From NCBI RefSeq assembly GCF_947487515.1, contig NZ_CANKWO010000004.1, forward strand, positions 372,001 to 436,000: a stretch of DNA of 64,000 nucleotides. Reading direction: 5' to 3'. This DNA is from an uncultured Litoreibacter sp. (lineage in GTDB: Bacteria > Pseudomonadota > Alphaproteobacteria > Rhodobacterales > Rhodobacteraceae). Shown here piece after piece: positions 3,639-19,969 of the stretch. The first letter of the stretch is position 1; each line of letters starts with the position of its first letter. A model generated the notes under the pieces. That model made no database searches and was not told where the DNA came from. It saw only the letters and a program-made list of their open reading frames with translations. Position numbers and translations under genes: made by a program.

Positions 3639-5177
3639 CTAGAACTCGCCGCCGCCTTCGCCTGCACCTTCTTGCCACGGCTTCACGAGGTCGCCAAAGC
3701 GGGTGAAGCGGCCCTCGAACGCCAGATCAACCGAACCGATCGGCCCGTGGCGCGCTTTGCCGATGATGACTTCTGCCTTGCCGTGGCAGTGCGACATTTC
3801 GTTTTGCCAGTTTGCCATTTTCTCTAGCTCATGGTCGGCGGGCTTTTCGCGTTCTTTGTAGTATTCCTCGCGGTACACAAACATCACGACGTCCGCATCT
3901 TGCTCGATCGAGCCGGATTCACGCAGGTCCGACAGTTGCGGGCGTTTATCTTCGCGGCTTTCCACGTTCCGCGACAACTGGGACAGGGCGATCACCGGAA
4001 TGTTCAACTCCTTGGCAATGGCTTTCAGACCTTGGGTGATCTCGGACACCTCGTTCACGCGGCTGTCTTTGGCGGTGGCGGGGCGCACGAGCTGCAAATA
4101 GTCGATGATCAACACATCCAAGCCATGGCTACGCTTCAGGCGACGCGCACGGGCCGCCAGTTGCGAGATGGGCAGGGCAGGGGTGTCGTCGATGAACAGC
4201 GGGCAGGATTCCAGCGCCTTTGCGGCTTCCACAAAGCGGCGGAACTCGGTTTCGTTCATATCACCTTTGCGGATCTGCTCGGACGGGACCTCGGCGGCCT
4301 CGGACAAAACACGCGCGGCGAGTTGCTCGGCGCTCATCTCGAGCGAGAAGAACCCAACGGCGCCGCCCTCAACGGCCCCTTCAGTGCCGTCATGCGTCGT
4401 GCCCTTTTTATAGGCCTTGGCGACGTTGAACGCGATATTGGTCGCAAGCGAGGTTTTCCCCATCGAGGGGCGACCAGCCAAGATCAAAAGGTCGGAGCGG
4501 TGCAACCCGCCAAGCTTCTTATCCATGTCGATCAGGCCGGTGGAAATCCCCGCAAGGCCGCCGTCACGCTGGTAGGCGGCATTGGCGACTTCCACGGCCT
4601 CGGTCACAGCTTTCAGGAAGCTTTGGAAGCCGCTTTCGGACTGCCCAGCCTCGGCCAGCGCATAGAGGCGCTGTTCTGCATCGACGATCTGACTGACAGG
4701 GTCGCTTTCGGTATCAACCTTGCCGGCTTTAAGCGCAATTTCTTGACCAAGTTCGATCAACTCACGGCGGATCGCCAGATCATAGATCATTTGTGCATAG
4801 TCACGCGCCGCGAATGCGGAAATCGACGCGCCTTGCAGACGCACGAGATAGGCGGGGCCGCCCAATTCTTGCAGGCCTTCGTCATCTTCAAAATAGGGTT
4901 TCAAAGTGACAGGGGACACAAGCAGGTTCTTGTGAATGCGAGAGGCCGCAGTTTCGTAGATGCGGCGGTGGACCGGATCATAGAAGTGATCGGAATTGAT
5001 CACAGAAGCCACGCGATCAAAGATGTCATTATTGGTGAGGATAGCGCCAAGAAGTTGCTGCTCGGCTTCGATGTTATGGGGCAGCGCGCTTGCGGCATCT
5101 ACATGTACGGACGCGCCCGGTCCAGAGTTCGGCCCAGTATTCGGTGGCGTGTCCGGCGCCATGCTCAAATCATTCAT
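3639..5177 (-). CDS. dnaB: Replicative DNA helicase DnaB
   Basis: The hexameric helicase that unwinds DNA at the replication fork. The 512-residue length fits the family. The N-terminal domain (HNIEAEQQLLGAIL) binds primase, followed by the RecA-like ATPase: Walker A GRPSMGKTS near residues 236-244, SLEMSAEQL, Walker B VLIIDYLQLV, and the late SQLSRNVE and RESGSIEQDAD motifs. Start: two adjacent ATGs at 5180 and 5177 follow AAGGGG (5184-5189); the second has better spacing. No intein interrupts the P-loop region. It is convergent with the ankyrin gene and upstream of nothing on its strand. Confidence 0.97.
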   Translation of the reverse strand: MNDLSMAPDTPPNTGPNSGPGASVHVDAASALPHNIEAEQQLLGAILTNNDIFDRVASVINSDHFYDPVHRRIYETAASRIHKNLLVSPVTLKPYFEDDEGLQELGGPAYLVRLQGASISAFAARDYAQMIYDLAIRRELIELGQEIALKAGKVDTESDPVSQIVDAEQRLYALAEAGQSESGFQSFLKAVTEAVEVANAAYQRDGGLAGISTGLIDMDKKLGGLHRSDLLILAGRPSMGKTSLATNIAFNVAKAYKKGTTHDGTEGAVEGGAVGFFSLEMSAEQLAARVLSEAAEVPSEQIRKGDMNETEFRRFVEAAKALESCPLFIDDTPALPISQLAARARRLKRSHGLDVLIIDYLQLVRPATAKDSRVNEVSEITQGLKAIAKELNIPVIALSQLSRNVESREDKRPQLSDLRESGSIEQDADVVMFVYREEYYKEREKPADHELEKMANWQNEMSHCHGKAEVIIGKARHGPIGSVDLAFEGRFTRFGDLVKPWQEGAGEGGGEF

Positions 5178-5433
5178 CATTATCCCCTTGTCCCTGAATA
5201 AAACCAATGACGGATACCGCTTTACGGATCAATCTGGATATCCTGTGGGTAACTTTTCTGCGGCAAAAGATGCCGCTATATTGCGTGTTCGATAGGCAAT
5301 CGGTCAACATGTAGAAAAATAATCTGGAGAACGGGCTAATCTTGACGCTACGTAAGCGCCCTCATGCCGCCTTTAGTTCCGGATCAGCTGTTCTGGCACA
5401 TGTGGCGGAGTCCATCCCCCCGACTTCGATTCG
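5178..5433. other. Intergenic region between dnaB and pyrE
   Basis: About 256 nt upstream of dnaB and downstream of pyrE, both on the minus strand. It must hold the dnaB promoter. I saw no strong terminator hairpin or recognisable operator in it. Confidence 0.4.
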
Positions 5434-6108
5434 TCAGCTGTGAGCGGCTTGCCATTTTGCAGGGTCGCGCAGGAAGCTTTCGACTTCGGTTAGCGTCTCT
5501 TCGTCAAAGGTTTTTTGCTCTTTGGCCACGGCCAAAACATCCCACCATGTGCAAAGCGAATGCAGCTGAATGCCATGTCCGCCCAGTACGTCTCGGGTGT
5601 CGGGGAAGATGTCGTAGAAGAAGATCACCGCCGTATGGGCACAGGTTGCGCCGGTTTCGCGGATGGCCTCGACGAAGCTGATTTTGGAGCCGCCATCGGT
5701 GGTCATATCCTCCACCAACAACACACGTTGCCCTTCGGTCATGACCCCTTCGATACGTGCGTTGCGGCCATAGCCCTTGGGCTTCTTGCGCACATAGGTC
5801 ATCGGCAGTTCCAACCGCTCGGCCACCAATGCCCCAAAAGGGATGCCCGCAGTCTCGCCACCGGCGACATTGTCAAAGGCTTCAAAACCGGCGTCGCGCA
5901 TGACGGTGCAGGCGAGGAAATCCATCAATGTCGTGCGAATTCGTGGAAAGGAGATCAACTTGCGGCAGTCCACATAGGTCGGGGCTTTCTTGCCGGATGC
6001 ATGGGTGAACGGCTCACGGGCGTTGAAATGGATCGCGCCGACTTCGAGCAACATCGAGGCAGACAGTCGCGCAATTTCTTCGCGGCTGGGGTAGGTCGTT
6101 GGGATCAT
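5434..6108 (-). CDS. pyrE: Orotate phosphoribosyltransferase
   Basis: Converts orotate and PRPP to orotidine 5'-phosphate, the fifth step of pyrimidine synthesis. 224 residues from the ATG at 6108, chosen because GGAGG lies at 6114-6118; the frame is open further upstream into pyrC. The PRPP-binding loop [13 protein letters not shown] is at residues 129-141, and [16 protein letters not shown] near residues 40-55 is typical of the bacterial enzyme. It lies 38 nt downstream of pyrC on the same strand, so the two steps are probably co-transcribed. Confidence 0.96.
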
Positions 6109-6146
6109 GATGGCCTCCGGCAGAAAAACGGTTGTGAAATACGGCG

Positions 6147-7181
6147 TTACTCGACGCGCCAATGCAGCGGCATCTGCGGGTCGAATACGGTGACGTCGCC
6201 TTGCGGCGTTGAGATGTGATCGGGGTAGCTGACTGGGTCGCCCTTGGTCAGGGTGATGGTATCGGCATTCGGGGGCATGCGGTAGAACGCAGGGCCATTC
6301 AAGGAAGCGAAGCTTTCAAGCTTCTCCAGCGCATTTTGCTGTTCAAACACTTCGGCGAGGATCGACATCGTATTGGTGGCGGTAAAGCAACCGGCACAGC
6401 CGCAGGGCAGCAGCTTGTTGGCGTCCGTATGCGGGGCAGAATCCGTGCCTAGGAAAAAGCTTGGCAGCCCAGAGGTCGCGGCCTCGACCAGAGCAAGGCG
6501 GTGTTCTTCGCGCTTGGCGACCGGCAGGCAGTAGTAATGCGGCTTGATGCCACCCGCGAGGATGTGGTTGCGATTGATGACGAGGTGATGCGTGGTGATT
6601 GTGGCGGCCAGATTGTCGCCGCCTTCGCGGGCATAATCGACACCTTGCTTGGTGGTTATATGCTCCATCACAACACGCAATTTGGGCACCGCGCGGCGAA
6701 TTGGATCCAACACGGTGTCAATAAAGACGGCCTCACGGTCGAATATATCGATTTCGGGGTTCGTGACCTCGCCGTGGACACAAAGGGGCAGGCCGATCTG
6801 AGCCATGTTTTCCAAAACGCGCTGCACCTTGGAAAAATCCGCGACACCAGAGGCCGAATTCGTGGTTGCGCCCGCGGGGTAGAGTTTCACGGCGTGGATC
6901 AACCCGATCTCGGCGGCGGCCCGCAGGTCTTTGACCTCGGTGTCCTCCGTTAGATAGAGGGTCATAAGCGGTTGAAATTTGGAATTATCCGGCTTGGCGG
7001 ACATTATCCTGTCGCGGTATTCGGCGGCATCTTTCGCGGTGATAACCGGCGGCACGAGGTTGGGCATGATGATAGCGCGGCCGAAGTGGCGGGCGGTTTC
7101 AGGCAGCACGGCGGCCAACATATCACCATCGCGTAGATGCAAGTGCCAGTCGTCGGGTCTGGTGATGGTCAAGCTTGTCAT
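6147..7181 (-). CDS. pyrC: Dihydroorotase (PyrC type)
   Basis: Cyclises carbamoyl-aspartate to dihydroorotate. The 344-residue protein is the short class II dihydroorotase: zinc-binding HLHLRD at residues 13-18, the carboxylated-lysine strand [13 protein letters not shown], then VHGEV, MEHITT, and the catalytic-aspartate loop FLGTDSAPH. The start at 7181 is preceded only by a weak purine run. First gene of the pyrC-pyrE pair. Confidence 0.96.
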
Positions 7182-7389
7182 TATGCGCCCCCTATGTGCC
7201 TGCGGCGGTGATTAGCGCTTTGACGCGCGCAAGGCTAGAGGGGGCGGGGCGTTGGAGGCAGAAAATACCGGTTGCATGGGCAGGAATTGGCGCGCGCTGG
7301 CCCGTCTTGAAGTTTCTTCGCACCTAACTGACTGACGCATGCTACAGCCAGTGACGCAAGATACCCTATTGAGTGAAAAGAGACTGGCA

Positions 7390-7680
7390 ATGAAACTCGC
7401 CCCCCTTTTGATCGCGGGCCTCACGGCATGCACCCCCACTGTTTTTGACGTGCCCGAAGTGGCCGAGCGCAGTGCAAATGACATCTCGAATTGTGAAGAC
7501 TTGGGGCGGGTGCGGGGTATTCCGGCTGTGTTCGGGGCCCTGAAGGAGATCGGCTTGAAAGATGTGAGGCGCGCCGCCAAGGAGAAGGCGCGGGATGTCG
7601 GGGGCAACACTATCGTGTTCGAACCCACGCCTGAAGGGGAGGTCGTGCTGGAGGTCGCAGCGCAGGTTTACTCTTGTTAA
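7390..7680 (+). CDS. Small lipoprotein, DUF4156-like
   Basis: A 96-residue protein from ATG 7390; the frame is open to 7339 but the lipoprotein signal begins at 7390. MKLAPLLIAGLTAC is a short lipoprotein signal with a lipobox LTAC (Cys14), so it is predicted to be lipid-anchored in an outer or inner membrane. The mature part, with NCEDLGRVRG, DVRRAAKEKARDVGGNTIVFE and a final Cys, resembles DUF4156 lipoproteins of unknown role. Monocistronic, divergent from pyrC. Confidence 0.7.
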   Translation: MKLAPLLIAGLTACTPTVFDVPEVAERSANDISNCEDLGRVRGIPAVFGALKEIGLKDVRRAAKEKARDVGGNTIVFEPTPEGEVVLEVAAQVYSC

Positions 7681-8074: not shown

Positions 8075-8102
8075 AAAAAGGGGCGTGATTACGCCCCTTT
8101 TT
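8075..8102. terminator. Bidirectional rho-independent terminator
   Basis: A perfect 12-bp stem, AAAAAGGGGCGT paired with ACGCCCCTTTTT, around a GATT loop. Runs of five T occur on both strands, so it can end both the DUF1127 transcript and the convergent glycan cluster. Confidence 0.92.
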
Positions 8103-8130: not shown

Positions 8131-10023
8131 TCAAGCGGATTGAAGCCTGCGACGTTTTTTGAAGGCATTGCCAAAACGCTCGGCGCGATCAGCCTTGCCG
8201 CGGTCGTTCAGGTACCCTTCCATGGCTTGACGATAAAGATAGATATCTTTGCGCGCGCGGATGGCGCGGTAGAAATCGAGCTCGGTCAATTCGCCGGTGA
8301 CCGCCGACTCCATCACGTCTTTCAAGACATTCATCCGACTGAGCACCAGCGCAGACTTATGCCCCAAACCCGCGCCCTTCAGGCGAATAATATTCCGGCC
8401 TTTCAGGCGGTCAACATGCTTGCGATCCCCTTTGTGGAATTGGTCGTAGATGACAAACACCTTTGATGCCGACTTTGTTTGCGATGCAGCATCAGAGTAG
8501 GGCAAAGACCAATCCGCAGCACGGCCCTTGGCAAACCGGCCTTCCCATCGAACCTTGCTTTTGTCCAAAGTCGTTTGCGGTGAAAAGGCGACCACAACAG
8601 CCCCGGGGGCCAGTGAGGAAAATGTCAGCGCGCCGAAGGCCCCCATCGAGGTCCCGACAAAGGCCACTTTCTTAAAGCCCTTGAAGAACCCGTCATCGCG
8701 CAAGCGTTCCAAATGCGCGATCAAATCTGCATCCCGGAACCATGTTGGCTCTTGTGCGTAAATGCCAAGGTGCGAATAGCCGCGATCCGCACAGAATTTT
8801 TGCGCCCATGGCTCTCGGGCGTAGGCGTCATTGCCGGCTTGCGAAAGATTGTCAAAGGAGACGACCAACTGGTCGGTGTCCCGTTCCACAAACGAAGACG
8901 CATAGGCTCCATGCGAATGGAACCAACCACGCTTGTCGCCACCGGGATAGATTTCACGGTACCATGTGGGCGGGGCCAAGGCCTCCTCCAAGGCGTCGTT
9001 GGCAGGATCAAGAACCGGACGCTCCCTGGCCTCTGCAATCAATTCTGCCTCTTGCTTGCGGCGGGCTTGCAAGGTCCCCATGGCGGTCATCAGAGCGTCT
9101 GTGGCGGCAGAGCGATCGGCAAGCTGCCCTCGCAACTGGTCTTCGATGCTTTGAGCGTTGTCGTCCCCTTCCAAATCCTGAGTTTCGAAAAACTCTTTGC
9201 AATCAGGCATGAAGCGTTTCACTAGGCGGCGGTTCTCACGAGACACTTGCGTCATTAGCCCCATACGCTCGGACCGCGAGAAGACGTCGCGCGACTTAAT
9301 GGTTCCAGGGTGGTTCAACGCGATTAACTCGCGGATGACCTCTCGGGTGTTGAAATCGGTGCGCTCGCCCATCAAGGAAAGAAGCTCTGACATCTCGGCG
9401 GAAAATGTCTTGTTGGAGAACCCTTCAACCACGCGCAAATCACGGGTGATGGGCATTTCAAGGTAATGCGCGAAATCGCGAACCACGTCGCCATCCACCA
9501 GATACTTCGGCCCGAAAGGGCGCACGACGATGTTCTCTTCCCCGAACATCTCGGCATAGGTGTTGAAGGTGTTGAGGTAGTGCAACCGGCGCTTGGCGTC
9601 ATCCAAGAAAGCCTGCCGGTCCGGCGGGATGCGGCTGTTCTTCAACAGCTGCTTATACAGCGCTTCGAGGTAGCTGTCTTGGCGGCGAATGTAGCAAATG
9701 ACCTTGGTGCGCTGCTTGAACTCTTCTGGGGCGGCACCCGAAAGTTTCCGCGCCGTATGCAGGTTGAACAGCATCTCGGAGGAGGCAACTTGCGTAACAT
9801 CTGGCGTGGCATCGGCTTCGCGAAGCATCTCTTCCATCAAAATGGTCGCGTTGCCCGTGCGGGCCGCGGCTGCCAGCTGGTTATGTGCGATATGCGCACG
9901 ACCAGTTGTCATGAAATTTAAGCGCCCCGTTTCGCGCAACGTGGTGGCGTTGTCGTTTAGGAAGTTCTGGAGCGATGTTGTTCCAGTTTTAGGTGATCCG
10001 ATATGAAGCCAAATCTGTCCCAT
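8131..10023 (-). CDS. Sulfotransferase fused to an alpha/beta-hydrolase-like domain
   Basis: A 630-residue two-domain protein. Residues 1-280 look like a sulfotransferase: the PAPS 5'-phosphosulfate loop GSPKTGTTSLQ at 9-19, and KVICYIRRQDSYLEALYKQL near 107-126, the usual 3'-phosphate motif region with its Arg-Gln-Asp-Ser. A charged linker (285-345) leads to residues 385-600, which carry a nucleophile elbow GTSMG at 457-461, SPQTTLDKS near 481, a VIYDQFHKGD strand likely to hold the acid, and a LGHK histidine. This second domain is clearly related to the whole of the neighbouring upstream gene. It is last in a minus-strand run of four, 27 nt after the previous stop. Likely role: sulfating, and perhaps deacylating or transferring acyl groups on, a glycan; the substrate is unknown. 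Confidence 0.75.
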   Translation of the reverse strand: MGQIWLHIGSPKTGTTSLQNFLNDNATTLRETGRLNFMTTGRAHIAHNQLAAAARTGNATILMEEMLREADATPDVTQVASSEMLFNLHTARKLSGAAPEEFKQRTKVICYIRRQDSYLEALYKQLLKNSRIPPDRQAFLDDAKRRLHYLNTFNTYAEMFGEENIVVRPFGPKYLVDGDVVRDFAHYLEMPITRDLRVVEGFSNKTFSAEMSELLSLMGERTDFNTREVIRELIALNHPGTIKSRDVFSRSERMGLMTQVSRENRRLVKRFMPDCKEFFETQDLEGDDNAQSIEDQLRGQLADRSAATDALMTAMGTLQARRKQEAELIAEARERPVLDPANDALEEALAPPTWYREIYPGGDKRGWFHSHGAYASSFVERDTDQLVVSFDNLSQAGNDAYAREPWAQKFCADRGYSHLGIYAQEPTWFRDADLIAHLERLRDDGFFKGFKKVAFVGTSMGAFGALTFSSLAPGAVVVAFSPQTTLDKSKVRWEGRFAKGRAADWSLPYSDAASQTKSASKVFVIYDQFHKGDRKHVDRLKGRNIIRLKGAGLGHKSALVLSRMNVLKDVMESAVTGELTELDFYRAIRARKDIYLYRQAMEGYLNDRGKADRAERFGNAFKKRRRLQSA

Positions 10024-10050
10024 GTGTCTTGCCCGCCTTGCCTTGAAGTA

Positions 10051-11013
10051 TCATTTGCGGCCCCCTCGTTTGCCGGGGGGCGTTATGCCACGCTTTTCCA
10101 AAAGCGCATTTGCCGCGTTTAACTTGCGGCGGAACACTGGACCATTGCCGGTGCTTAGAACCCGCTCCGCCAAATAGGCGATGAGCAGGGGGTGTTTCTT
10201 TTCAGGAATGCGCAAGATCAACTCGCGCAGATACCGGCGGAACTCGCGCCGCGCCCGAAGCATTTTGTAAAAGCTGGTGCGCGTCAACGTGCCATCAACG
10301 CATGCTCCGACCACTGGTTTCAGCAATCCCATCTGGATCAGACCCGATGCGATGCGGTGACCTTGGAACCGGCATTTCAACTTGGTTATGTTTTTGCCGC
10401 GGAACAGGGCCGCATGCATTGCGTCAGCAGGTTCCAACGGGTCGTAGAAAATGAACACATCACTGGCTTTGGCCACCATGTCAGGCGCATAGCCGTAGTC
10501 ATTGTTGAAGTTGCGCTTCCACGCTTTTTGATACCGCGTTTCCCAAGAGGTGACATCACGGTCCAGCGTGGCTTGGGGCGAAATTGCAACCACTGTGGCC
10601 TTGGGGCAGGCGGCGGAAAATGCGCATGCTGCATAAGCCCCCATAGAGGCCCCATAAAACACGACAGTGTCGAATTGCGCGAAAAACTTCTGTTTTTTCA
10701 GCCGGTTGAAGAAGGCGATCACGTCTTCATCGCGGTACCACGTCCAGTCATGCGCCATCATGCCCAGAATGGACCAACCCTGCTTTTGAACGAAATCAAA
10801 GCCCCACGGCAGGCGGTTTCCATGCTCAAACACATGGTCGAGGTTCTCGAAGGTGACAATCAGCGTTTTGCCGGATTTGACGAAAAGGGCCGTGTGGTCT
10901 TCTCCCAATTCCTCGAAAAAACCGTGCTCATCCCCTAAGGCGCGCAGCTCGGCGTTCCATGCCGCGCGATCCATTTCTTCGGTGGGGGCTTTGAGGTCGA
11001 TAGCGCTACTCAT
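10051..11013 (-). CDS. Alpha/beta-hydrolase-like protein of the glycan cluster
   Basis: A 320-residue protein from ATG 11013, which overlaps the previous stop as ATGA and has AGAGGG 7 nt upstream. It shows a hydrolase-like core: TLIVTFENLDH near 50-60, a nucleophile elbow GASMG at 121-125, AISPQATLDRDV near 143-154, VFIFYDPLEP and a QGHR histidine near 217-220. The same blocks occur in the C-terminal half of the next gene, so the two are paralogous domains. No signal peptide is seen. Predicted esterase or acyltransferase-like enzyme on a glycan intermediate; this is inference. In databases such proteins may carry only a generic hydrolase label. Confidence 0.65.
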   Translation of the reverse strand: MSSAIDLKAPTEEMDRAAWNAELRALGDEHGFFEELGEDHTALFVKSGKTLIVTFENLDHVFEHGNRLPWGFDFVQKQGWSILGMMAHDWTWYRDEDVIAFFNRLKKQKFFAQFDTVVFYGASMGAYAACAFSAACPKATVVAISPQATLDRDVTSWETRYQKAWKRNFNNDYGYAPDMVAKASDVFIFYDPLEPADAMHAALFRGKNITKLKCRFQGHRIASGLIQMGLLKPVVGACVDGTLTRTSFYKMLRARREFRRYLRELILRIPEKKHPLLIAYLAERVLSTGNGPVFRRKLNAANALLEKRGITPPGKRGGRK

Positions 11014-12020
11014 GCCGCGACCCTCTTGGCTAGGCCAGGAAACATATCCAACGTTGGGGAAATGGCCTTGAACAATGCGCGACCAGTGTCGCTGTCTTGA
11101 AGGATTTGGATTTGATCGCGGTGCCATTGCACCGAGCGGTCATGAAGGCGGCCCAGCTTGGGATCACATATAAGGTCTTCGTATATGTCCTTCATCGCAC
11201 TCAGCTTTGGTTGAATAGAGGCGTCAAATTCCTCATTGCGGTTCATATCCGCCCAATAGTCCGCCCCGCGCAAACCTTCGCCAAAGGCGCGGCCTCGGGC
11301 GGATTTCAGCAAGAAGCTTTCGCGGGTGCGTACGGCGTAATGATTGATCTGGCCCAATTCATAGCTGATGGTGTCGCGGTTTAGACGCCAACTGCTTTTG
11401 TGGTAGCTTTCGGGCAGGGGAGTTCCTGCAGGGCCCGCCCAGTTCAGCGCATCCCAATCGTCGTTGGGAACTGATTTCGGGCGGTGGCACCCAATCAATT
11501 CCACCGCGTCGGTGCGGTGAATGGATTTGATACCCCAAGCCTGCGCAGGGCTTGGGCAATGCTGAGGCGCGGCACGGCGCAGGGTTTCCGTCAAGAAGCC
11601 ATCGTGGAAGGACGTCACATCCGCGCTGCCAAACAAACGCCAAGCCAGCGAAATGCACTTCGCATCCGGAGCGGCGGCGGTGAGGTCGGTGATCCGGCCA
11701 TTCCCTGCGTGAATATTTATGAATTCATCCGCGTCGATCACCGCCACCCAGTCGTGGTCTTGATAGACCTGCTCTTTGGGGGCTTTGCGAAAGGCGCGTA
11801 CTTGATGCGAGGCACGGCCACCTTCACGCGCGGGATTATGGCGCAGGGTTACGATCCCCATATTCGCCAACCGGCGCAGGATCTTGTCAGTGCCGTCTTC
11901 GCAGTCATTGATATAGATAAGGAAGTGATCAAACCCGATAGACATGTGATAGGCCACCCACTCAAGGATGTAGGGGCCTTCGTTCTTCATACATGTTAAG
12001 ATCAGGTGCTTTTGGGTCAT
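11010..12020 (-). CDS. Family-2-like glycosyltransferase (copy A)
   Basis: A 336-residue cytoplasmic glycosyltransferase. LILTCMKNEGPYILEWVAYH (7-26), INDCEDGTDKIL and the metal-binding DADEF at 96-100 followed by INIH are the core of a GT-A fold enzyme of the glycosyl transferase family 2/92-like group. Later blocks WRLFG, CHRPK, INHYAVRTRESFL and YWADMNRNEEFD also occur in two divergent neighbours (13691-14722 and the C-terminus of 14709-16982). Start overlaps the upstream stop as ATGA (12017-12020) and its own stop overlaps the next start the same way, so translation is coupled. Donor sugar and acceptor unknown. Confidence 0.82.
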   Translation of the reverse strand: MTQKHLILTCMKNEGPYILEWVAYHMSIGFDHFLIYINDCEDGTDKILRRLANMGIVTLRHNPAREGGRASHQVRAFRKAPKEQVYQDHDWVAVIDADEFINIHAGNGRITDLTAAAPDAKCISLAWRLFGSADVTSFHDGFLTETLRRAAPQHCPSPAQAWGIKSIHRTDAVELIGCHRPKSVPNDDWDALNWAGPAGTPLPESYHKSSWRLNRDTISYELGQINHYAVRTRESFLLKSARGRAFGEGLRGADYWADMNRNEEFDASIQPKLSAMKDIYEDLICDPKLGRLHDRSVQWHRDQIQILQDSDTGRALFKAISPTLDMFPGLAKRVAA

Positions 12021-13552
12021 CGTTTTTGAACCACCAGCACTTGGTCGCGTTTATCTTTGTGCCACTTCGCTTGGAAAATGAAACAGCCCGAAAAGTCGGC
12101 GCGCATTTCGTTCAGGCGGTTTTGAATTTGGGCGTCTGGATGGGCAAAGCCGCCCTCCCGCAGGTAATTTTGAAACAGCACGGCTGTGCGCGGGTAGCCG
12201 GATTTCTCCAAGTCCTTTGGCTGGAAACGAAGGTCCTCAATGATGTAGAGGCCGCCGGATTTCACCTTTGAGAACAGTGCGGTAAAGGCATGTTGCTGGT
12301 GGTGGGATGCATGTGTTGCATCATCCAGCACAACATCGAACGCATCCGCCTTGGCTGTGGCACGTTCCAGTGTTTCAATGCTATCGGAGGTCGCGCGCAC
12401 AGTCTTGAGGCGCGTGTTTTTCTCACCGCTATAGGCCATCGCATCAATGCCCATTAGTTTGGCCTTGGGCAGGAATTCCAGCCACATATCTACCGCTGCG
12501 GGCTCACTAAGCCCCAGCAACGCCATGTTCACCGCCCGCGTGCGCATCGGGTTGAACAGCATTTGGTAAAGTTCCGTGAACCGGTGTTTGCCGGTGCCTT
12601 GATCCAAGCCCCGTTCATCTGCCAAATCGGTCAAATTCACGATGCCGCGCCCTTTGCGGTCGGCATTTGTCACCTCTGGAATAGATGTTCCAGGGATCAT
12701 TTTGGGCTCTTTTGGCCTATGCGGGTTCGATTTCGGCAAAGGGGCATCAGAGGGCACAATCTTGTGCTTCTTCAGCAGCTTGCCGATGAGGCTGTCTGGG
12801 TGCGGCTCGCCGTTCTCGCGCTCGATAATGCGCATCCGCATACGACGCCCCCAAAAGTGGATCGAGAGCGTGTTGTCGGTGATGTAGTGGCTCAGGTCCA
12901 TGTTCGGCTTTAGCATCATACGACGCTTTTTGAAGCTGACAGGGAACAGGGCCTCAATCGGCATGGCGTATTTATGCTCGCCCGTTTTATGCAGGAAATG
13001 GGTCAGGGCCTGCGGCCCCCAAACACCCCAAGACTGCTCGCCCACGTGCACAGGGTCGCCCGCGGCTTTCTTTTCGCGCATCTCGGCTTTCAGCTCTTCG
13101 GAGAACCAGTCAGGGATCGCATATTCATCAGACGTGAAGTCGATCAGCCCCGCCAGCGTGTCGCTATCTGCAGGCAAGCCCACGACGCCGTTGTTGATGT
13201 GGCGATCACTTTCCCAGCCGTGAAAGTGGCCGTTGGGGGAGGTGAAGCGTTTGACGCAATACGCATCTGTATCGGCCCAAATCTGGTCGTCGGTCTTGGC
13301 CAGCATGTTGTAGCGCCACTTATCCGCCTGCGGAGCAGGGGAGCCAGTGCGCTTATGCGCGATCACATTGCCAAGGGGCATGATCTCATTGGCGTCACAA
13401 ATCTCGATCCCGTCGGGAATATTTCCGACGTCACCGTAAGTGTACATTTTGACATGGTGGCCCGCATCGCGGAATGACACGGCGCAAAGTTGCTCCATGT
13501 AGGATAGATTGCCGCCGATCCACAGCTGGGCAATGGCATAGTCTTTGGACAC
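12017..13552 (-). CDS. Glycosyltransferase (GT32-like) fused to a class I methyltransferase-like domain
   Basis: A 511-residue protein with a GTG start; AGAGG precedes it by 8 nt. The N-terminal 250 residues resemble capsular glycosyltransferases with a DXD sugar-binding motif: AIAQLWIGGNLSYMEQL, KWRYNMLAK, then WADTDAYC (DTD near 94-96) and INNGVVGL. A proline-rich linker (265-300) joins a C-terminal region of about 190 residues that looks like a SAM-dependent methyltransferase: ELYQMLF, VDMWLEFLPKAKLMGIDAM, DVVLDDATHASHHQQ, GGLYIIEDL. This HASHHQ region is typical of sugar or antibiotic O-methyltransferases. First gene of the minus-strand unit. Confidence 0.75.
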   Translation of the reverse strand: MSKDYAIAQLWIGGNLSYMEQLCAVSFRDAGHHVKMYTYGDVGNIPDGIEICDANEIMPLGNVIAHKRTGSPAPQADKWRYNMLAKTDDQIWADTDAYCVKRFTSPNGHFHGWESDRHINNGVVGLPADSDTLAGLIDFTSDEYAIPDWFSEELKAEMREKKAAGDPVHVGEQSWGVWGPQALTHFLHKTGEHKYAMPIEALFPVSFKKRRMMLKPNMDLSHYITDNTLSIHFWGRRMRMRIIERENGEPHPDSLIGKLLKKHKIVPSDAPLPKSNPHRPKEPKMIPGTSIPEVTNADRKGRGIVNLTDLADERGLDQGTGKHRFTELYQMLFNPMRTRAVNMALLGLSEPAAVDMWLEFLPKAKLMGIDAMAYSGEKNTRLKTVRATSDSIETLERATAKADAFDVVLDDATHASHHQQHAFTALFSKVKSGGLYIIEDLRFQPKDLEKSGYPRTAVLFQNYLREGGFAHPDAQIQNRLNEMRADFSGCFIFQAKWHKDKRDQVLVVQKR

Positions 13553-13690
13553 GTTTTTTGCCTCTCATGAGCGAGTTCAATCTCCGCTCGTTTTTATCAT
13601 TGTTTCGATTCTTACAAAGGAGGGGTTAAAACGCAAGGAAAACCGATTCGTTTCACGGGGAAACCGAGCTGTAAGGGCAACAGGCGTCAT

Positions 13691-14722
13691 ATGAAGATCA
13701 CACTTGTAACCACAATGCGCAACGAAGGTCTGCATCTGTTGGAATGGATCGCGCATCACCGTGCCGCGGGTGTCACCGACTTTTTGGTCTACACCAATGA
13801 CTGCGAGGACGGCACAGAGGCGCTATTGAACCTGCTTCCCGACGTCACCCATGTAGCCTTGGAGGACGGGAAAAAGCCACCTCAATGGCGGGCGCTGAAG
13901 GCGGCTTGGGATCATCCTCTGGTGACACATGCGGATTGGGTGATGTGTACTGACTGTGATGAATTTGTGAATTTAGGCAAAGGCTTATCGACCTTAGTTG
14001 AATTGATAGATCATGTGGACGCAGATATGATTTTGATGCCGTGGCGCTTGTTCGGCCACAATGCCCATGCGCAGATGTCCGACGCATTAACCACCGAACG
14101 CTTCACCCGCGCCGCGCCAGAGGCGCTGCTTTATCCGGCGATCGGAAGCTACTTCAAGTCGCTGTTCCGCAAAAGCGGCCCGTTCCGCCAATTTGGCGTT
14201 CATCGTCCAAAACAGAAAAACCCAGAACGCCATGACCCACCACGAGTGGTTGATGGCTCCGGCGTGCCGGTGCCAAGCAATGTGGCCTCAAGGGACGGGC
14301 AGATCATGTTGTGGGGCAAGCCGATCGCGCGCGAATTGGTGCAGCTGAACCATTATTCCGTCCGCTCCGCCGCAGAGTTTATGCTGAAGCGGGGACGAGG
14401 ATTGCCCAATCACCAGCAAAAAGAAATCGATCTGACCTATTGGGTCGAGCGGAATTTCAACGTCGTGGAAGATCGCTCGATTGCACATATGGCGACGGCG
14501 ACCAAAGCCACCTTAACGGACTTTTTGGCAGTCGAGGGCGTCGCGCAGGCACAAGCCGAAAGCCGCGCATGGCACCGTGCCAGATTTGAGGCCTTGATGC
14601 AGCAGCCTGATGCATTGAAGCTATACGGCCGGTTATTGTTGGCCGAAGGGGCGTCGCATTTGCCTGATGCGGTAGCATTGGATCTGATCAAGCGCTATGG
14701 ACAGGTCCATGGCTCAAACTGA
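13691..14722 (+). CDS. Family-2-like glycosyltransferase (copy B)
   Basis: A 343-residue paralogue of the glycosyltransferase at 11010-12020. Shared blocks are MRNEGLHLLEWIAHH, TNDCEDGTEALLNLL, the metal-binding CTDCDEF at residues 86-92, PWRLFG, KSLFRKSGPFRQFGVHRPK, LNHYSVRSAAEFMLKRGRG and YWVERNFNVVED. No signal peptide. It is divergent from the minus-strand half of the cluster across a 138-bp gap, and its stop overlaps the next gene by 14 nt, so the two are co-translated. Sugar specificity cannot be read from the sequence. Confidence 0.82.
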   Translation: MKITLVTTMRNEGLHLLEWIAHHRAAGVTDFLVYTNDCEDGTEALLNLLPDVTHVALEDGKKPPQWRALKAAWDHPLVTHADWVMCTDCDEFVNLGKGLSTLVELIDHVDADMILMPWRLFGHNAHAQMSDALTTERFTRAAPEALLYPAIGSYFKSLFRKSGPFRQFGVHRPKQKNPERHDPPRVVDGSGVPVPSNVASRDGQIMLWGKPIARELVQLNHYSVRSAAEFMLKRGRGLPNHQQKEIDLTYWVERNFNVVEDRSIAHMATATKATLTDFLAVEGVAQAQAESRAWHRARFEALMQQPDALKLYGRLLLAEGASHLPDAVALDLIKRYGQVHGSN

Positions 14723-16982
14723 TATCTACCTAAAGCGCGAATTGAATGTTGTTGAAGATCAAGGCCTTGTGGCGCTTGACTGTATAGGCTGGGCAGATCC
14801 GGTCGGGGGCATGGGGCTGCGGGTGTTTTTCAAGACCGGCACGTCCTACGATCCGTTCGATCCCAAGGGGCGGAAAGGCTGTGCGGCATTTTCGGAAGCC
14901 CGCATGATCAACGGCGGGCCGATGTTCGTCGGCACGGCGCCTGCACCTTCCGGCCATATCAAGATGGCGCTGAAGCAAGGCGAGCTGAAACTCCCAGTCC
15001 AAGAGCCGGAAACCGGTTTGTTCGAAGACATGAATGTTTGCATCGTCGAGCGAAACGGTGAAAGCATATCCGTCATCGAGGACTGGCTGCGCTACCATGT
15101 GACGGGGCATGACTTGCAAGCCGTGCTTATGATTGATCGTGAAAAACCTAACAGTGAGAAGGGGTTCGAGCGCAAACTGAAAGCTCTTGCTGAAAGTGTA
15201 GGGTTGCAACGCCTTGTGCATGTAAAGTCGAAAGTGCCCTTGGGGGATGTGAACCTGCCCCCTGCGCACCACCCGTTCAACGCTCCTGATGCGCCTGGCA
15301 AAGATCGCATGGATGATTTGCCCAAGGACCCTGAAACGTCGCCCTTGGCCGAGCTGTCGCTATATGAATGGGCGAAATGGCGGTTCCTGAGCCGCGCGCG
15401 CGCTGTGATGAACATCGACCTGACCGACTTGCTCGCGTTGGAGGCGAAACCATTCGATCAGGTCCATGAAACCTCGGTCGGGGTCATCCAGCTTATCGGC
15501 CAACGCATCTACCCTTGGCGGGTGCGTCCCAAGAAAAAGCCGACGTTTGGTGACCATATTTGCCGCCAATTCGAAAACCCCCGCGCCAATCGCCGTTGGT
15601 GTGTGGCCCCCTCGCGTGTGGGAAGTGACAAAGTCTGGCGCTTTGTGCGGATCATCGATGCAGACCCGCAGCCGGACGAGGTAATGCCCTTTTTGCGGGC
15701 GATGGCGATCAAGCATCCCAAGAATTCCGCGGCTGAACTGGTGCCAAAAACGTCGTTGATTGAGGATGAACATTTACTCGTGATGGCCCGCGAAATTTGG
15801 GATCACAAACCGGTTCGTCCGCCTGAAAGCAAGATGGCAGAGCCCTCGGGAAAAGCCATCAACGGCGGGCGCACCGCAATTGTCACCTGCATGAAAAACG
15901 AAGGGCCCTTCATTCTTGAATGGATCGCCTACCACCGCGCCATCGGTGTGGATGACTTTCTTGTCTACACCAATGATTGCAACGACGGCACGGATGAGCT
16001 GCTGGACCTGCTGCAAGAGCGCGGCATCTTGCAAAGGCGGGACAATAAATTCGCTGGAACCGACCTGAAGCCGCAGCACTGGGCTTTGGATGCCGCAGGG
16101 CGCGAGGATGTGTTCAAGAATGCCGGTTGGGCGATTTCGATGGATGTGGATGAGTTTATCAACATTCACGTGGGCGAGGGCAAGCTAGAGGATTTGTACA
16201 AGGCAGTAGGGGACGCCAACATGATTTCGCTGACGTGGCGGCTTTATGGCAATGGGGATGTGCATGAATACAAAGACGAATTGCTGATCAACCAATTCAC
16301 CCAATGCGCGCCAGAGCTGTGCCGAAAGCCACATCAGGCTTGGGGCTTCAAGACGCTGTTTCGCAACATTGGCATTTACAAAAAGATGGGAGTCCACCGG
16401 CCCAAAGGCCTAAAGCCGGACCTGTGGGACAAGATCAAATGGGTCAATGGTTCCGGCAAGCCGATGCCGAAAAAGCTGATCCGCAATGGCTGGCGCTCCA
16501 CCACCGACAGCTACGGCTATGACTTGGTGTCGCTGAACCATTATGCGGTTCGATCTGCGGAAAGCTTCCTTGTGAAACGGGATCGTGGGCGGGTGAACCA
16601 CGTGGATCGCGATCAGGGCTTAAGTTACTGGTTTCGAATGAATAACAACTGGGAGTTCAACAACTCCGCTCAAACGAAGCTTCCGCTGGTGCAGGCAGAG
16701 TTCGACCGTTTGATGTCCGATCCGGAGCTGCGTGCGGCCCATGATTATTCCGTCGGCAAGCACCGCGAGAAAATCGAAGAACTGAAGGCGACCGAAAACT
16801 ACTCCAACTTCTATCGCGACCTGACAGGGCCGCGAATGGAGCGTTTGGCACGGATGCACAATTACTTCGGGGCCAATGTGTTTTTGGCGGGCCCCGATGT
16901 TGTGCCCGATGAGGTGGCCTTGATGGAGGAAATCCCCGAGGATTTCTTCTTTACCGTCGAGAAAGTCAAAACGACGCATTAA
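14709..16982 (+). CDS. Tandem glycosyltransferase with degenerate N-terminal copy (copy C)
   Basis: A 757-residue protein; ATG 14709 is preferred (ACAGG just upstream), with an in-frame ATG at 14697. The C-terminal 370 residues are a complete copy of the cluster's glycosyltransferase: VTCMKNEGPFILEWIAYH (from about 393), NDCNDGTDELLDLL, MDVDEFINIH (about 478-487), LTWRLYG, KTLFRNIGIYKKMGVHRPK, LNHYAVRSAESFLVK and YWFRMNNNWEFN. The N-terminal part has echoes of the same fold: NVCIVERNGESISVIEDWLR near 109 matches the first motif, and VMNIDLTDLLAL near 234 aligns with the DVDEF strand but lacks its DxDE. That copy is probably catalytically dead, perhaps binding the acceptor. Confidence 0.75.
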   Translation: MAQTDIYLKRELNVVEDQGLVALDCIGWADPVGGMGLRVFFKTGTSYDPFDPKGRKGCAAFSEARMINGGPMFVGTAPAPSGHIKMALKQGELKLPVQEPETGLFEDMNVCIVERNGESISVIEDWLRYHVTGHDLQAVLMIDREKPNSEKGFERKLKALAESVGLQRLVHVKSKVPLGDVNLPPAHHPFNAPDAPGKDRMDDLPKDPETSPLAELSLYEWAKWRFLSRARAVMNIDLTDLLALEAKPFDQVHETSVGVIQLIGQRIYPWRVRPKKKPTFGDHICRQFENPRANRRWCVAPSRVGSDKVWRFVRIIDADPQPDEVMPFLRAMAIKHPKNSAAELVPKTSLIEDEHLLVMAREIWDHKPVRPPESKMAEPSGKAINGGRTAIVTCMKNEGPFILEWIAYHRAIGVDDFLVYTNDCNDGTDELLDLLQERGILQRRDNKFAGTDLKPQHWALDAAGREDVFKNAGWAISMDVDEFINIHVGEGKLEDLYKAVGDANMISLTWRLYGNGDVHEYKDELLINQFTQCAPELCRKPHQAWGFKTLFRNIGIYKKMGVHRPKGLKPDLWDKIKWVNGSGKPMPKKLIRNGWRSTTDSYGYDLVSLNHYAVRSAESFLVKRDRGRVNHVDRDQGLSYWFRMNNNWEFNNSAQTKLPLVQAEFDRLMSDPELRAAHDYSVGKHREKIEELKATENYSNFYRDLTGPRMERLARMHNYFGANVFLAGPDVVPDEVALMEEIPEDFFFTVEKVKTTH

Positions 16983-18841: not shown

Positions 18842-19969
18842 ATGCCGGAATTCACATTCAGTGTTATCCATCTTGGCAATATTGCTGATCTGGATCCGAC
18901 CGACGGGAACACCGTTGCGGAAAACCAATCGGCCCTTTTGGGCAGCTATTATAGCGCCGGAGACCCTGCATCTGACCATATCGTCACCCTCACGGCGCAA
19001 GATACAAACTCGGACAACCTGATCAACACCAACGATACAGCATCCCCAGAAGCCATTTCCTTCGATCTGGGGGATGGGCCGGTGGCAACACAATATGATA
19101 GTCTCTTCAATCTGGACGTCACAGTGACCTTCGATTCCGCCAGTGGGGAGCCCCCCTACAACGGGTTGGGAGGGGTCATTCAGACAGAAACCGGTGACTT
19201 GTTCTTTGTGATGATCGATGATGATGCGGGATTGGGGGCGAATTCCTTTGATGATGTTGCAATTGATTCAATCACCATCAACAGCATCTCAGCCTATGGG
19301 AGCCAGCAAAGCGCCACTGTATCTGATGGCCAGTCCTTTGTTCCCTGTTTTGCAGCAGGCACCCAAATCGAAACCCCAGATGGGTTGATTCCAGTCGAGA
19401 ACATAGCCGTAGGCGACCGCGTCATTACTCTGGATTGCGGAGTTCAACGGGTGAAATGGGTCGGCCGCCGGTTCCTAAGTGCGCGCCAGCTGGCAGAGCA
19501 TCCGAAGTTGCGTGCAATTCACATTAGTGCAGGGGCTTTGGGGGATGGATACCCCTCCCGCGATCTTTTAGTTTCGCCGCAGCATCGGATTTTGTTGAAA
19601 TCCAAGATTACCAAACGCATGACGGGGCAGTCGGAAATTCTCGTTGCGGCTAAGAAGCTCGCGGGGTTTCCGGGAATTCGTCAGGTGGATTGTGGATTGG
19701 GCGTTCAATACCACCATTTCGCTTGCGAGTCGCATCAGTTGGTTTGGGCCAATGGTGCGGTCGCAGAGACGCTGCTTCTGGGGTCACAACTGGGGAAATG
19801 GCTCAGCCCGAAAGCCCGCGAAGAGTTGGCAATGATCTTACCCTGCGCCTTTGGAATTGAAGCGCCGCTCGGGATAGAGCCCGCAAGACCCATCGTTCAA
19901 CGTCGCGCTGTATTACAAAACATGCTTGCAAGACATATCAAGAATGACATGAAACTGGTGACGCTCTGA
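18842..19969 (+). CDS. Hint-domain protein (Hint_2), first copy
   Basis: A 375-residue protein. Residues 1-165 are acidic, rich in D, T and S, and probably beta-rich (LTAQDTNSDNLINTND, FFVMIDDDAG), without a classical signal peptide. Residue 168 onward is a Hint_2 domain: PCFAAGTQIETPDGLIPVENI, VGDRVITLDCG, VKWVGRR, LLVSPQHRILL, then a late HHFACESHQLVWANG block. These are the hedgehog/intein folds common in Rhodobacterales secreted or surface proteins. The nucleophile Cys169 is present. Self-cleavage is possible for the fold but not shown. The acidic N-terminus suggests type I secretion or calcium binding, which is inference. It sits between the convergent fbpB and fbpA genes. Confidence 0.8.
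   Translation: MPEFTFSVIHLGNIADLDPTDGNTVAENQSALLGSYYSAGDPASDHIVTLTAQDTNSDNLINTNDTASPEAISFDLGDGPVATQYDSLFNLDVTVTFDSASGEPPYNGLGGVIQTETGDLFFVMIDDDAGLGANSFDDVAIDSITINSISAYGSQQSATVSDGQSFVPCFAAGTQIETPDGLIPVENIAVGDRVITLDCGVQRVKWVGRRFLSARQLAEHPKLRAIHISAGALGDGYPSRDLLVSPQHRILLKSKITKRMTGQSEILVAAKKLAGFPGIRQVDCGLGVQYHHFACESHQLVWANGAVAETLLLGSQLGKWLSPKAREELAMILPCAFGIEAPLGIEPARPIVQRRAVLQNMLARHIKNDMKLVTL

Follow-up and report, generated by a model that had tools for sequence, protein, structure and literature searches.

A divergent gene cluster of Litoreibacter predicted to assemble and decorate a glycan, and its counterparts in the Rhodobacteraceae

We analyzed a 64,000-nucleotide stretch of DNA from an uncultured Litoreibacter sp. 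of the family Rhodobacteraceae (positions 372,001 to 436,000 of contig NZ_CANKWO010000004.1; hereafter the window, to whose numbering coordinates refer unless another locus is named). Its positions 8131-16982 hold a glycan assembly and decoration cluster, the class to which a preliminary description of the sequence had already assigned it. An open reading frame (ORF) call recovered six ORFs as two divergent units, four genes on the minus strand and two on the plus strand. The minus-strand unit consists of gene 4 (12017-13552, with a GTG start), gene 3 (11010-12020), gene 2 (10051-11013) and gene 1 (8131-10023), and the plus-strand unit of gene 5 (13691-14722) and gene 6 (14709-16982). They are separated by a 138-bp divergent spacer (13553-13690), presumed to be the promoter region; a scan for sigma-70-type promoters returned no site in the spacer and three in the region, compared with 4.9 expected by chance. 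Genes overlap by ATGA at 12017-12020 and 11010-11013, the latter if gene 2 starts at position 11013, as taken here (its ORF is open to 11127), and by 14 nucleotides at 14709-14722 if gene 6 starts at 14709 (ORF open from 14697). The 3′ end of the minus-strand unit, ahead of pyrC, is marked by a likely terminator: positions 8075-8102 form a palindrome of 12 pairs with runs of A and T. It has the longest stem among the listed terminator-like sites, which number 17 across the region, little above the chance expectation of 12.5 (standard deviation, 3.4). The ORF call and the domain searches confirmed the six genes, the two overlapping units and the gene fusions of the preliminary description.

Genes 3 and 5 and the C-terminal part of gene 6 code for glycosyltransferases (GTs) of one type. 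All three matched PF13704 (Glyco_tranf_2_4) and PF01697 (GT92) above the Pfam cut-offs and have kept a DxDEF motif, namely, DADEF (the DxD motif) in gene 3, DCDEF in gene 5 and DVDEF in gene 6; gene 6 shares 42% identity with gene 3 and 40% with gene 5. The N-terminal region of gene 6 (residues 1 to about 380) had no Pfam match at an E value of 0.1. It possibly comprises a beta-rich part and a degenerate GT-A domain, for which profile comparisons with hhalign gave weak matches (E values of 0.002 and 0.0035, probabilities of 14% and 9%). AlphaFold gave a poor model of gene 6, with a predicted local distance difference test (pLDDT) score of 55, which was kept out of the fold searches.

Gene 4 appears to join a GT32-like GT-A domain (residues 7-276, WADTD motif) to an O-methyltransferase domain (residues 301-511). 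Gene 4 itself had no PF04488 (GT32) match; two of the 12 members of the alignment of its N-terminal part matched that family below the cut-off (best E value, 0.0023), and the profile built from it (A3) matched a GT-A glucosyltransferase with an E value of 6e-6. The C-terminal part matched MycE and TylE (3ssm and 8ia9; E values of 2.4e-16 and 5.4e-14), enzymes that act on macrolide sugars. The homology to these sugar O-methyltransferases spans the catalytic domain, and the DDatH and IED stretches align, including their D and H residues. In gene 1, a sulfotransferase-like domain (residues 2-289) precedes an alpha/beta-hydrolase domain (residues 352-629). The former carries a PKTGTTS loop and scored 17.7 bits against PF17784, under the cut-off of 22.8 bits; the gene in the matching position in Pacificibacter is a Sulfotransfer_2 protein (66 bits).

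The hydrolase domain of gene 1 and the product of gene 2 are paralogs, sharing 37% identity across query residues 50-301, and both score under the Pfam cut-offs. Alignments pointed to candidate catalytic triads: S123, D191 and H219 of gene 2 are invariant in 11 aligned sequences, and S459, D527 and H555 of gene 1 are among the invariant columns of four sequences. The structure model of gene 2 was good (pLDDT, 81.8; predicted template modeling score, 0.81) and showed an alpha/beta-hydrolase fold, in agreement with the preliminary description. Its top fold matches were feruloyl, cinnamoyl and other esterases; the streptococcal protein Gap2 (6oyc_B) lay within 1 Z unit of them at rank 11 with one aligner, and CsaC, the meningococcal capsule O-acetyltransferase, ranked 17 with the other, all with close scores. 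CsaC is reported to use acetyl-CoA and a triad of S114, H228 and D198 (PMC7501274). The fold and the Ser-Asp-His residues would suit a CsaC-like glycan O-acyltransferase and an esterase equally. Because a fold match, CsaC, combines acetyl-CoA with a Ser-His-Asp triad, we prefer the view that gene 2-type hydrolases transfer an acyl group to a glycan, a role as yet unproven; gene 2 is thus a candidate glycan O-acyltransferase. Named relatives of gene 2, from 11 loci, come from Litoreibacter albidus (89% identity), an uncultured Litoreibacter (73%), Pacificibacter, Shimia, Nereida, Pseudopelagicola and Cognatishimia.

Members of this hydrolase family are frequently annotated as "hypothetical protein" and, in Thioclava, as "phosphoadenosine phosphosulfate reductase." Plasmid p2 of Thioclava sp. 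GXIMD4215 (L065, 3764-9014) carries three of them, one with the reductase annotation, around a formylglycine-generating-enzyme-family gene, with a sulfatase-like gene adjoining. A homolog with 39.7% identity occurs in a 16-kb plasmid record labeled Bacillus velezensis (NZ_CP061939.1, 13467-14168), perhaps through contamination or mislabeling.

Clear membrane segments are absent from all six proteins; gene 1 has a marginal window of 19 residues, and a control permease gave 100 windows. Their N termini were judged for signal peptides by eye only. None matched in a PADLOC search for anti-phage defense at an E value of 0.01. The ratios of nonsynonymous to synonymous substitution rates (dN/dS) relative to L. 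albidus were 0.03 to 0.07 for the five genes covered (1 to 4 and 6), denoting strong purifying selection.

Conservation within the genus was assessed in 21 genomes (G000-G020). Fifteen of them (G000-G003, G007-G010 and G014-G020) have all six functions in one cluster, with the sulfotransferase and hydrolase separate in G014, gene 3 diverged in G016 and the contig ending inside gene 6 in G019; five functions lie together in G005 and G013, the contig of the latter ending inside gene 5. At least five of the six functions are thus clustered in 17 of the 21 genomes, in agreement with the earlier proposal that the genes form a system. G004 and G006 have reduced sets, the set of G012 is split on two contigs, and G011 (79% complete) has only pieces of gene 6. 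These sequence comparisons support the idea that the six genes behave as a unit.

The core extends to other genera. A GT, a gene-6-type GT, a GT32-like (G32) gene and the hydrolase occur together in seven of eight named loci (L036-L043), some of which have other flanks, e.g., a LacI-type regulator; different flanks surround the core in Shimia, Cognatishimia and Pseudopelagicola. A sulfotransferase gene lies between the G32 gene and the hydrolase in L036-L041, the L036 copy being a Sulfotransfer_2 protein, and the MycE-like domain was not seen in these eight loci.

We surveyed the family with 149 genomes, one per Rhodobacteraceae genus, all of which were searched for the hydrolase, the GT types, pyrC and KpsC/KpsS. 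The hydrolase is present in 110 of the 149 genera; a class-wide sample yielded it in 4 of 240 genomes, three from Rhodobacteraceae and one, with a weak match, from elsewhere. Where a genome has both hydrolase and pyrC, they lie within 2 kb of each other in 74 of 107 cases. In the window, pyrC (6147-7181, minus strand) is likewise the anchor gene of this family-wide site and lies outside the system.

Loci were read for gene order in 40 cases, hand-chosen from the hydrolase matches and mostly better scoring, so that operon counts are not unbiased. The drawings left out L001-L012, L055, L057 and L062 (short pieces or duplicates) and label profiled domains only, and antisense frames can mask true small genes in them (in L092, for instance, between a pair of GTs). 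The order GT, large GT (777 to 917 amino acids), GT and hydrolase, which we call version A, was found in 18 of the 40 loci and also in L044, with pyrC next in 15 of the 18. Seven version-A loci were inspected closely: six have a sulfotransferase-like gene after the first GT, and at least four have a methyltransferase before the last GT; above the Pfam cut-offs were two of two sulfotransferases tested (PF17784) and two of three methyltransferases. The full version-A order is a GT of about 350 residues, sulfotransferase, large GT, methyltransferase, a second GT of about 350 residues, hydrolase and pyrC. It therefore shares with the Litoreibacter locus three GTs of the same family, the sulfotransferase, the methyltransferase, the hydrolase and the neighbor pyrC. 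It differs in that no relation between the N termini of the large GT and gene 6 could be detected (hhalign E value, 0.72), the methyltransferase is TRM5/FkbM-like rather than MycE-like, no GT32-like gene was labeled and the hydrolase tree places its hydrolases away from gene 2. In that tree (FastTree, 109 hydrolase domains), gene 2 joins the hydrolases of other loci with a gene-6-type GT (version B) with a support of only 0.69, the gene 1 domain groups with other sulfotransferase-fused domains, and version-A hydrolases group with those beside pyrC.

The two versions rarely coexist. The version-A large GT occurs in 47 genera and the gene-6 type in 33, with both in one genus versus 10.4 expected (Fisher P = 1.4e-5 over the 149 genera, relatedness not corrected). 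A distance of at most 10 kb separates the GT from the hydrolase in 39 of the 47 and 23 of the 33 genera; the rest have no hydrolase (six and one, respectively) or have it on another contig (two and nine). We conclude that the locus, as far as gene content and order can tell, is version B, a lineage variant of a Rhodobacteraceae cluster whose version A sits beside pyrC, and not a one-off. The finding is real, biologically coherent and better conserved than the preliminary description could know; the unusual composition claimed there was not supported, as a closely similar functional kit recurs family-wide beside pyrC.

The hydrolase has also been fused to several types of partner: to a sulfotransferase in the genus and in L024, L029 and L068; to G32 in L013, L022, L023 (a 1,379-residue frame), L071-L075 and L077 (the G32 match of L071 is partial, 88 residues); to a methyltransferase in L042; to a GT on a Loktanella plasmid (L066); and to a G32-GT pair in L085. 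The latter is a single frame of 1,049 residues (G170; 3114-6263 of L085) comprising G32, GT and hydrolase, which resembles a version-B core merged for the most part into one polypeptide. Because the hydrolase is repeatedly fused to biosynthetic partners, it probably acts on the same glycan as they do.

Gene 2 matches occur in 34 plasmid records and gene 6 matches in 160, from which seven regions were read; the five described first agree with action on a shared glycan. The hydrolase adjoins rfbABCD on the Loktanella plasmid and GT and UDP-sugar genes on that of S. indolifex; it is matched within an annotated sulfotransferase adjoining glf and GTs on that of P. albus, and lies near an ABC (ATP-binding cassette) exporter, a sulfotransferase and cysND on that of Paracoccus saliphilus. 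The P. inhibens P78 plasmid has GTs and an FkbM methyltransferase alongside. A gene-6-type tandem GT (48.5% identity across 99% of the length) is encoded on pPGA1_262 of Phaeobacter inhibens DSM 17395 (L064, 11974-14247), and 57 Phaeobacter plasmid records match gene 6.

Genes for capsule export are found at other genome sites. KpsC/KpsS-type proteins (PF05159) scored above the cut-off in all 21 Litoreibacter genomes. In G000, KpsS, a Poly_export protein (KpsD) and KpsC are encoded beside riboflavin genes, on a contig other than the cluster's. None of the cluster's GT, G32, hydrolase, sulfotransferase or methyltransferase families was found in 38 kb at this site or in 19 kb each at the Kps sites of G006 and G018, other GT families not having been searched for. 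G000 also encodes a KpsE-like protein with an ABC ATPase (KpsT-like) and a PF00793 enzyme that appears, from its size and context, to be of the KdsA type; the nine proteins scanned there include no GT. KpsE-like long frames (558 to 633 residues) were matched in 20 of the 21 genomes. We rejected the idea that the 570-residue KpsE-like protein is a KpsM-KpsE fusion, as it has only two hydrophobic segments; KpsM was not located there. Over the 149 genera, the hydrolase is present in 109 of 134 with KpsC/KpsS, compared with 1 of 15 without (P = 1.2e-8, related genera not being independent), which is suggestive of a link between the cluster and Kps. The preliminary description had argued that the locus is not an ordinary capsule cluster for lack of an exporter. 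None is indeed found in genes 1 to 6, but the argument is weak because of the Kps genes at other sites and the exporter near the P. saliphilus hydrolase.

These observations lead us to propose, with a probability of roughly 0.55, that the locus serves the assembly and tailoring of a capsule-like glycan that would be exported by Kps proteins encoded elsewhere. The three GT92/GT2-type transferases and the GT32-like one, apparently soluble and cytosolic, would extend the glycan by adding sugars. O-methylation of a sugar would fall to the MycE-like domain of gene 4, and sulfation, with 3′-phosphoadenosine-5′-phosphosulfate (PAPS) as the donor, to the sulfotransferase domain of gene 1. The two hydrolases would place an acyl group on the glycan through an acyl-enzyme formed with their Ser-His-Asp residues, as in CsaC. 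Once complete, the chain, probably capsule-like, would leave through the Kps machinery. The sequences themselves show the domains, the candidate catalytic residues, the fusions, the conservation and the co-occurrence; we infer the acceptor, the step order, transfer of the acyl group instead of its hydrolysis and export by Kps, and the product, as well as the acyl chemistry, may turn out otherwise. Decoration with sulfate, methyl and acyl groups, as suggested earlier, agrees with what the enzymes look like, acyl probably so; the product may be either a short glycan or a polymer.

Several observations weigh against this proposal. The GT32-like assignment of gene 4 and the sulfotransferase assignment of gene 1, both made by sequence comparison, are weak. 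In fold searches with gene 2, esterases reach scores as high as those of CsaC and Gap2, the CsaC structure 6yuo was not among the 50 matches from the second aligner, and a sequence search of gene 2 gave no relevant solved relative. At the threshold applied, the hydrolase is missing from seven of the 79 genera that have a tandem GT, it often has no labeled GT alongside (e.g., L046-L048, L050 and L051), and the other cluster genes are absent within 12 kb on either side of the gene-6-type GT of pPGA1_262. Every KpsE-like match falls under the curated cut-off of that family, and 25 of the 149 genera have KpsC/KpsS without the hydrolase. Phylogenetically independent comparisons gave two pairs in a pyrC tree of 75 genomes (sign test not significant) and five in a tree of pyrC, dnaB and pyrE from 71 genomes (on average 3.4 pairs the same way and 0.0 the other; median P = 0.25). 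Lastly, the Kps set may serve a second cluster, its main rival user.

That second polysaccharide cluster (G000, L172, 3860-19226) comprises genes for a WbsX-RgpF transferase, an ABC exporter, a nucleotidyltransferase and Poly_export proteins. It is interspersed with genes for RTX-repeat proteins, one of them with peptidase M10 matches.

One possible alternative, which we do not favor, is that the locus modifies another acceptor, such as a lipopolysaccharide or lipooligosaccharide core, a glycolipid or a secreted protein, and that Kps serves the separate WbsX/RgpF cluster. The lack of any exporter, polymerase or flippase match in genes 1 to 6, the exporter, Poly_export and transferase genes owned by the second cluster, and the nonsignificant independent pairs are all compatible with it. 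The raw co-occurrence of hydrolase and KpsC/KpsS argues against it, as do the P. saliphilus neighborhood and the near-universal KpsE-like frame in the genus, with the G000 copy beside an ABC ATPase and a KdsA-type gene. It is likewise doubtful, on balance, that the hydrolases are true esterases that strip acyl groups from the glycan in editing or recycling. The fold ranking, with Gap2 tied to the esterases, and the sulfatase-associated hydrolases on the Thioclava plasmid would fit such a function; the repeated fusions to biosynthetic GT, sulfotransferase and methyltransferase domains speak for a constructive one, and so does the lack of clear membrane segments, which fits action in the cytosol, where glycans are built. 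That carbohydrate genes gained by horizontal transfer simply collected, by chance or neutrally, at a permissive site beside pyrC is very improbable: site content does vary among genera, and G035 has parts at three places (L029, L030 and L052), but the low dN/dS values of five genes, the reappearance of the core between different neighbors in Shimia, Cognatishimia and Pseudopelagicola and the several distinct fusions between the same partner types all oppose it.

Starting from assembly of a capsule-like glycan with export by Kps, we tentatively put forward a wider scheme, which is a good deal more speculative. The Rhodobacteraceae would have a split pathway for a family-specific, capsule-like glycan that is sulfated, O-methylated and O-acylated, with the transferase and tailoring genes clustered, typically beside pyrC, and the Kps genes for initiation and export at separate housekeeping sites. 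Versions A and B would correspond to two glycan types, and a new family of hydrolase-fold acyltransferases, joined in different cases to GT, sulfotransferase or methyltransferase domains, would be the signature enzyme.

The flanking genes tested comprised pyrC and pyrE on one side and genes for an ABC uptake-type permease of uncertain substrate, a solute-binding protein and a Hint protein. pyrE (5434-6162) comes next after pyrC and is followed by dnaB (3639-5207), named from a reading of the ORF without a family search. The Hint protein (18842-19969, plus strand; 375 residues) has a Hint_2 domain at residues 168-314 (PF13403, E value of 2e-49), adjoins the ABC uptake genes and is possibly an autoprocessing protein. 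A gene for a small putative lipoprotein (7339-7680, plus strand) with a weak DUF4156 match under the cut-off is situated in the interval from pyrC to gene 1, opposite in strand to both. Small ORFs of one cluster (c11) that may be compared with it occur in five further loci, sameness of the gene not being established.

If the proposal is correct, genes can be named for a surface glycan common to a large, mostly marine bacterial family. This would bear on algal attachment, on the receptors of phages and gene transfer agents and on marine sulfated polysaccharide, and a hydrolase family often annotated as hypothetical would gain a testable role. Literature searches, limited to open-licence papers, turned up no description of this cluster. 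A link to the capsule gene rcc01932, associated with the gene transfer agent of R. capsulatus, was considered by text only and was not adopted: PMC10218006 refers to rcc01932 as a chain initiation gene, and its text contains neither the word glycosyltransferase nor the word sulfotransferase.

Known systems resemble the cluster in part. Compared with MycE and TylE, the gene 4 domain is fused behind a GT32-like domain, and compared with the GT92 and Glyco_tranf_2_4 families, gene 6 has an additional N-terminal region of about 380 residues without a Pfam match. The likeness of gene 2 to Gap2 of the Gap2/Asp2 streptococcal serine-rich glycoprotein systems (6oyc_B) is one of fold only, with a score tied with those of many esterases. 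Unlike Wzx/Wzy-dependent capsule and O-antigen loci, genes 1 to 6 include no flippase or polymerase match, the rest of the genome not having been searched. Group 2 capsule loci (KpsMTEDCS; csa/ctr of Neisseria meningitidis serogroup A), whose chains are linked to 3-deoxy-D-manno-oct-2-ulosonic acid (Kdo), differ in that their kpsM, kpsT, kpsE and kpsD export genes are not matched in genes 1 to 6 or the flanking genes tested, that the present locus has a sulfotransferase and a MycE-like methyltransferase, and that gene 2 has no relevant sequence match among solved proteins. They resemble it in combining transferases with an alpha/beta-hydrolase-fold O-acetyltransferase, CsaC, and KpsC, KpsS, KpsD and KpsE/T-like proteins are encoded in this genome. 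The cluster may supply the half of a capsule pathway that is missing beside the export genes, which are located in other parts of the genome.

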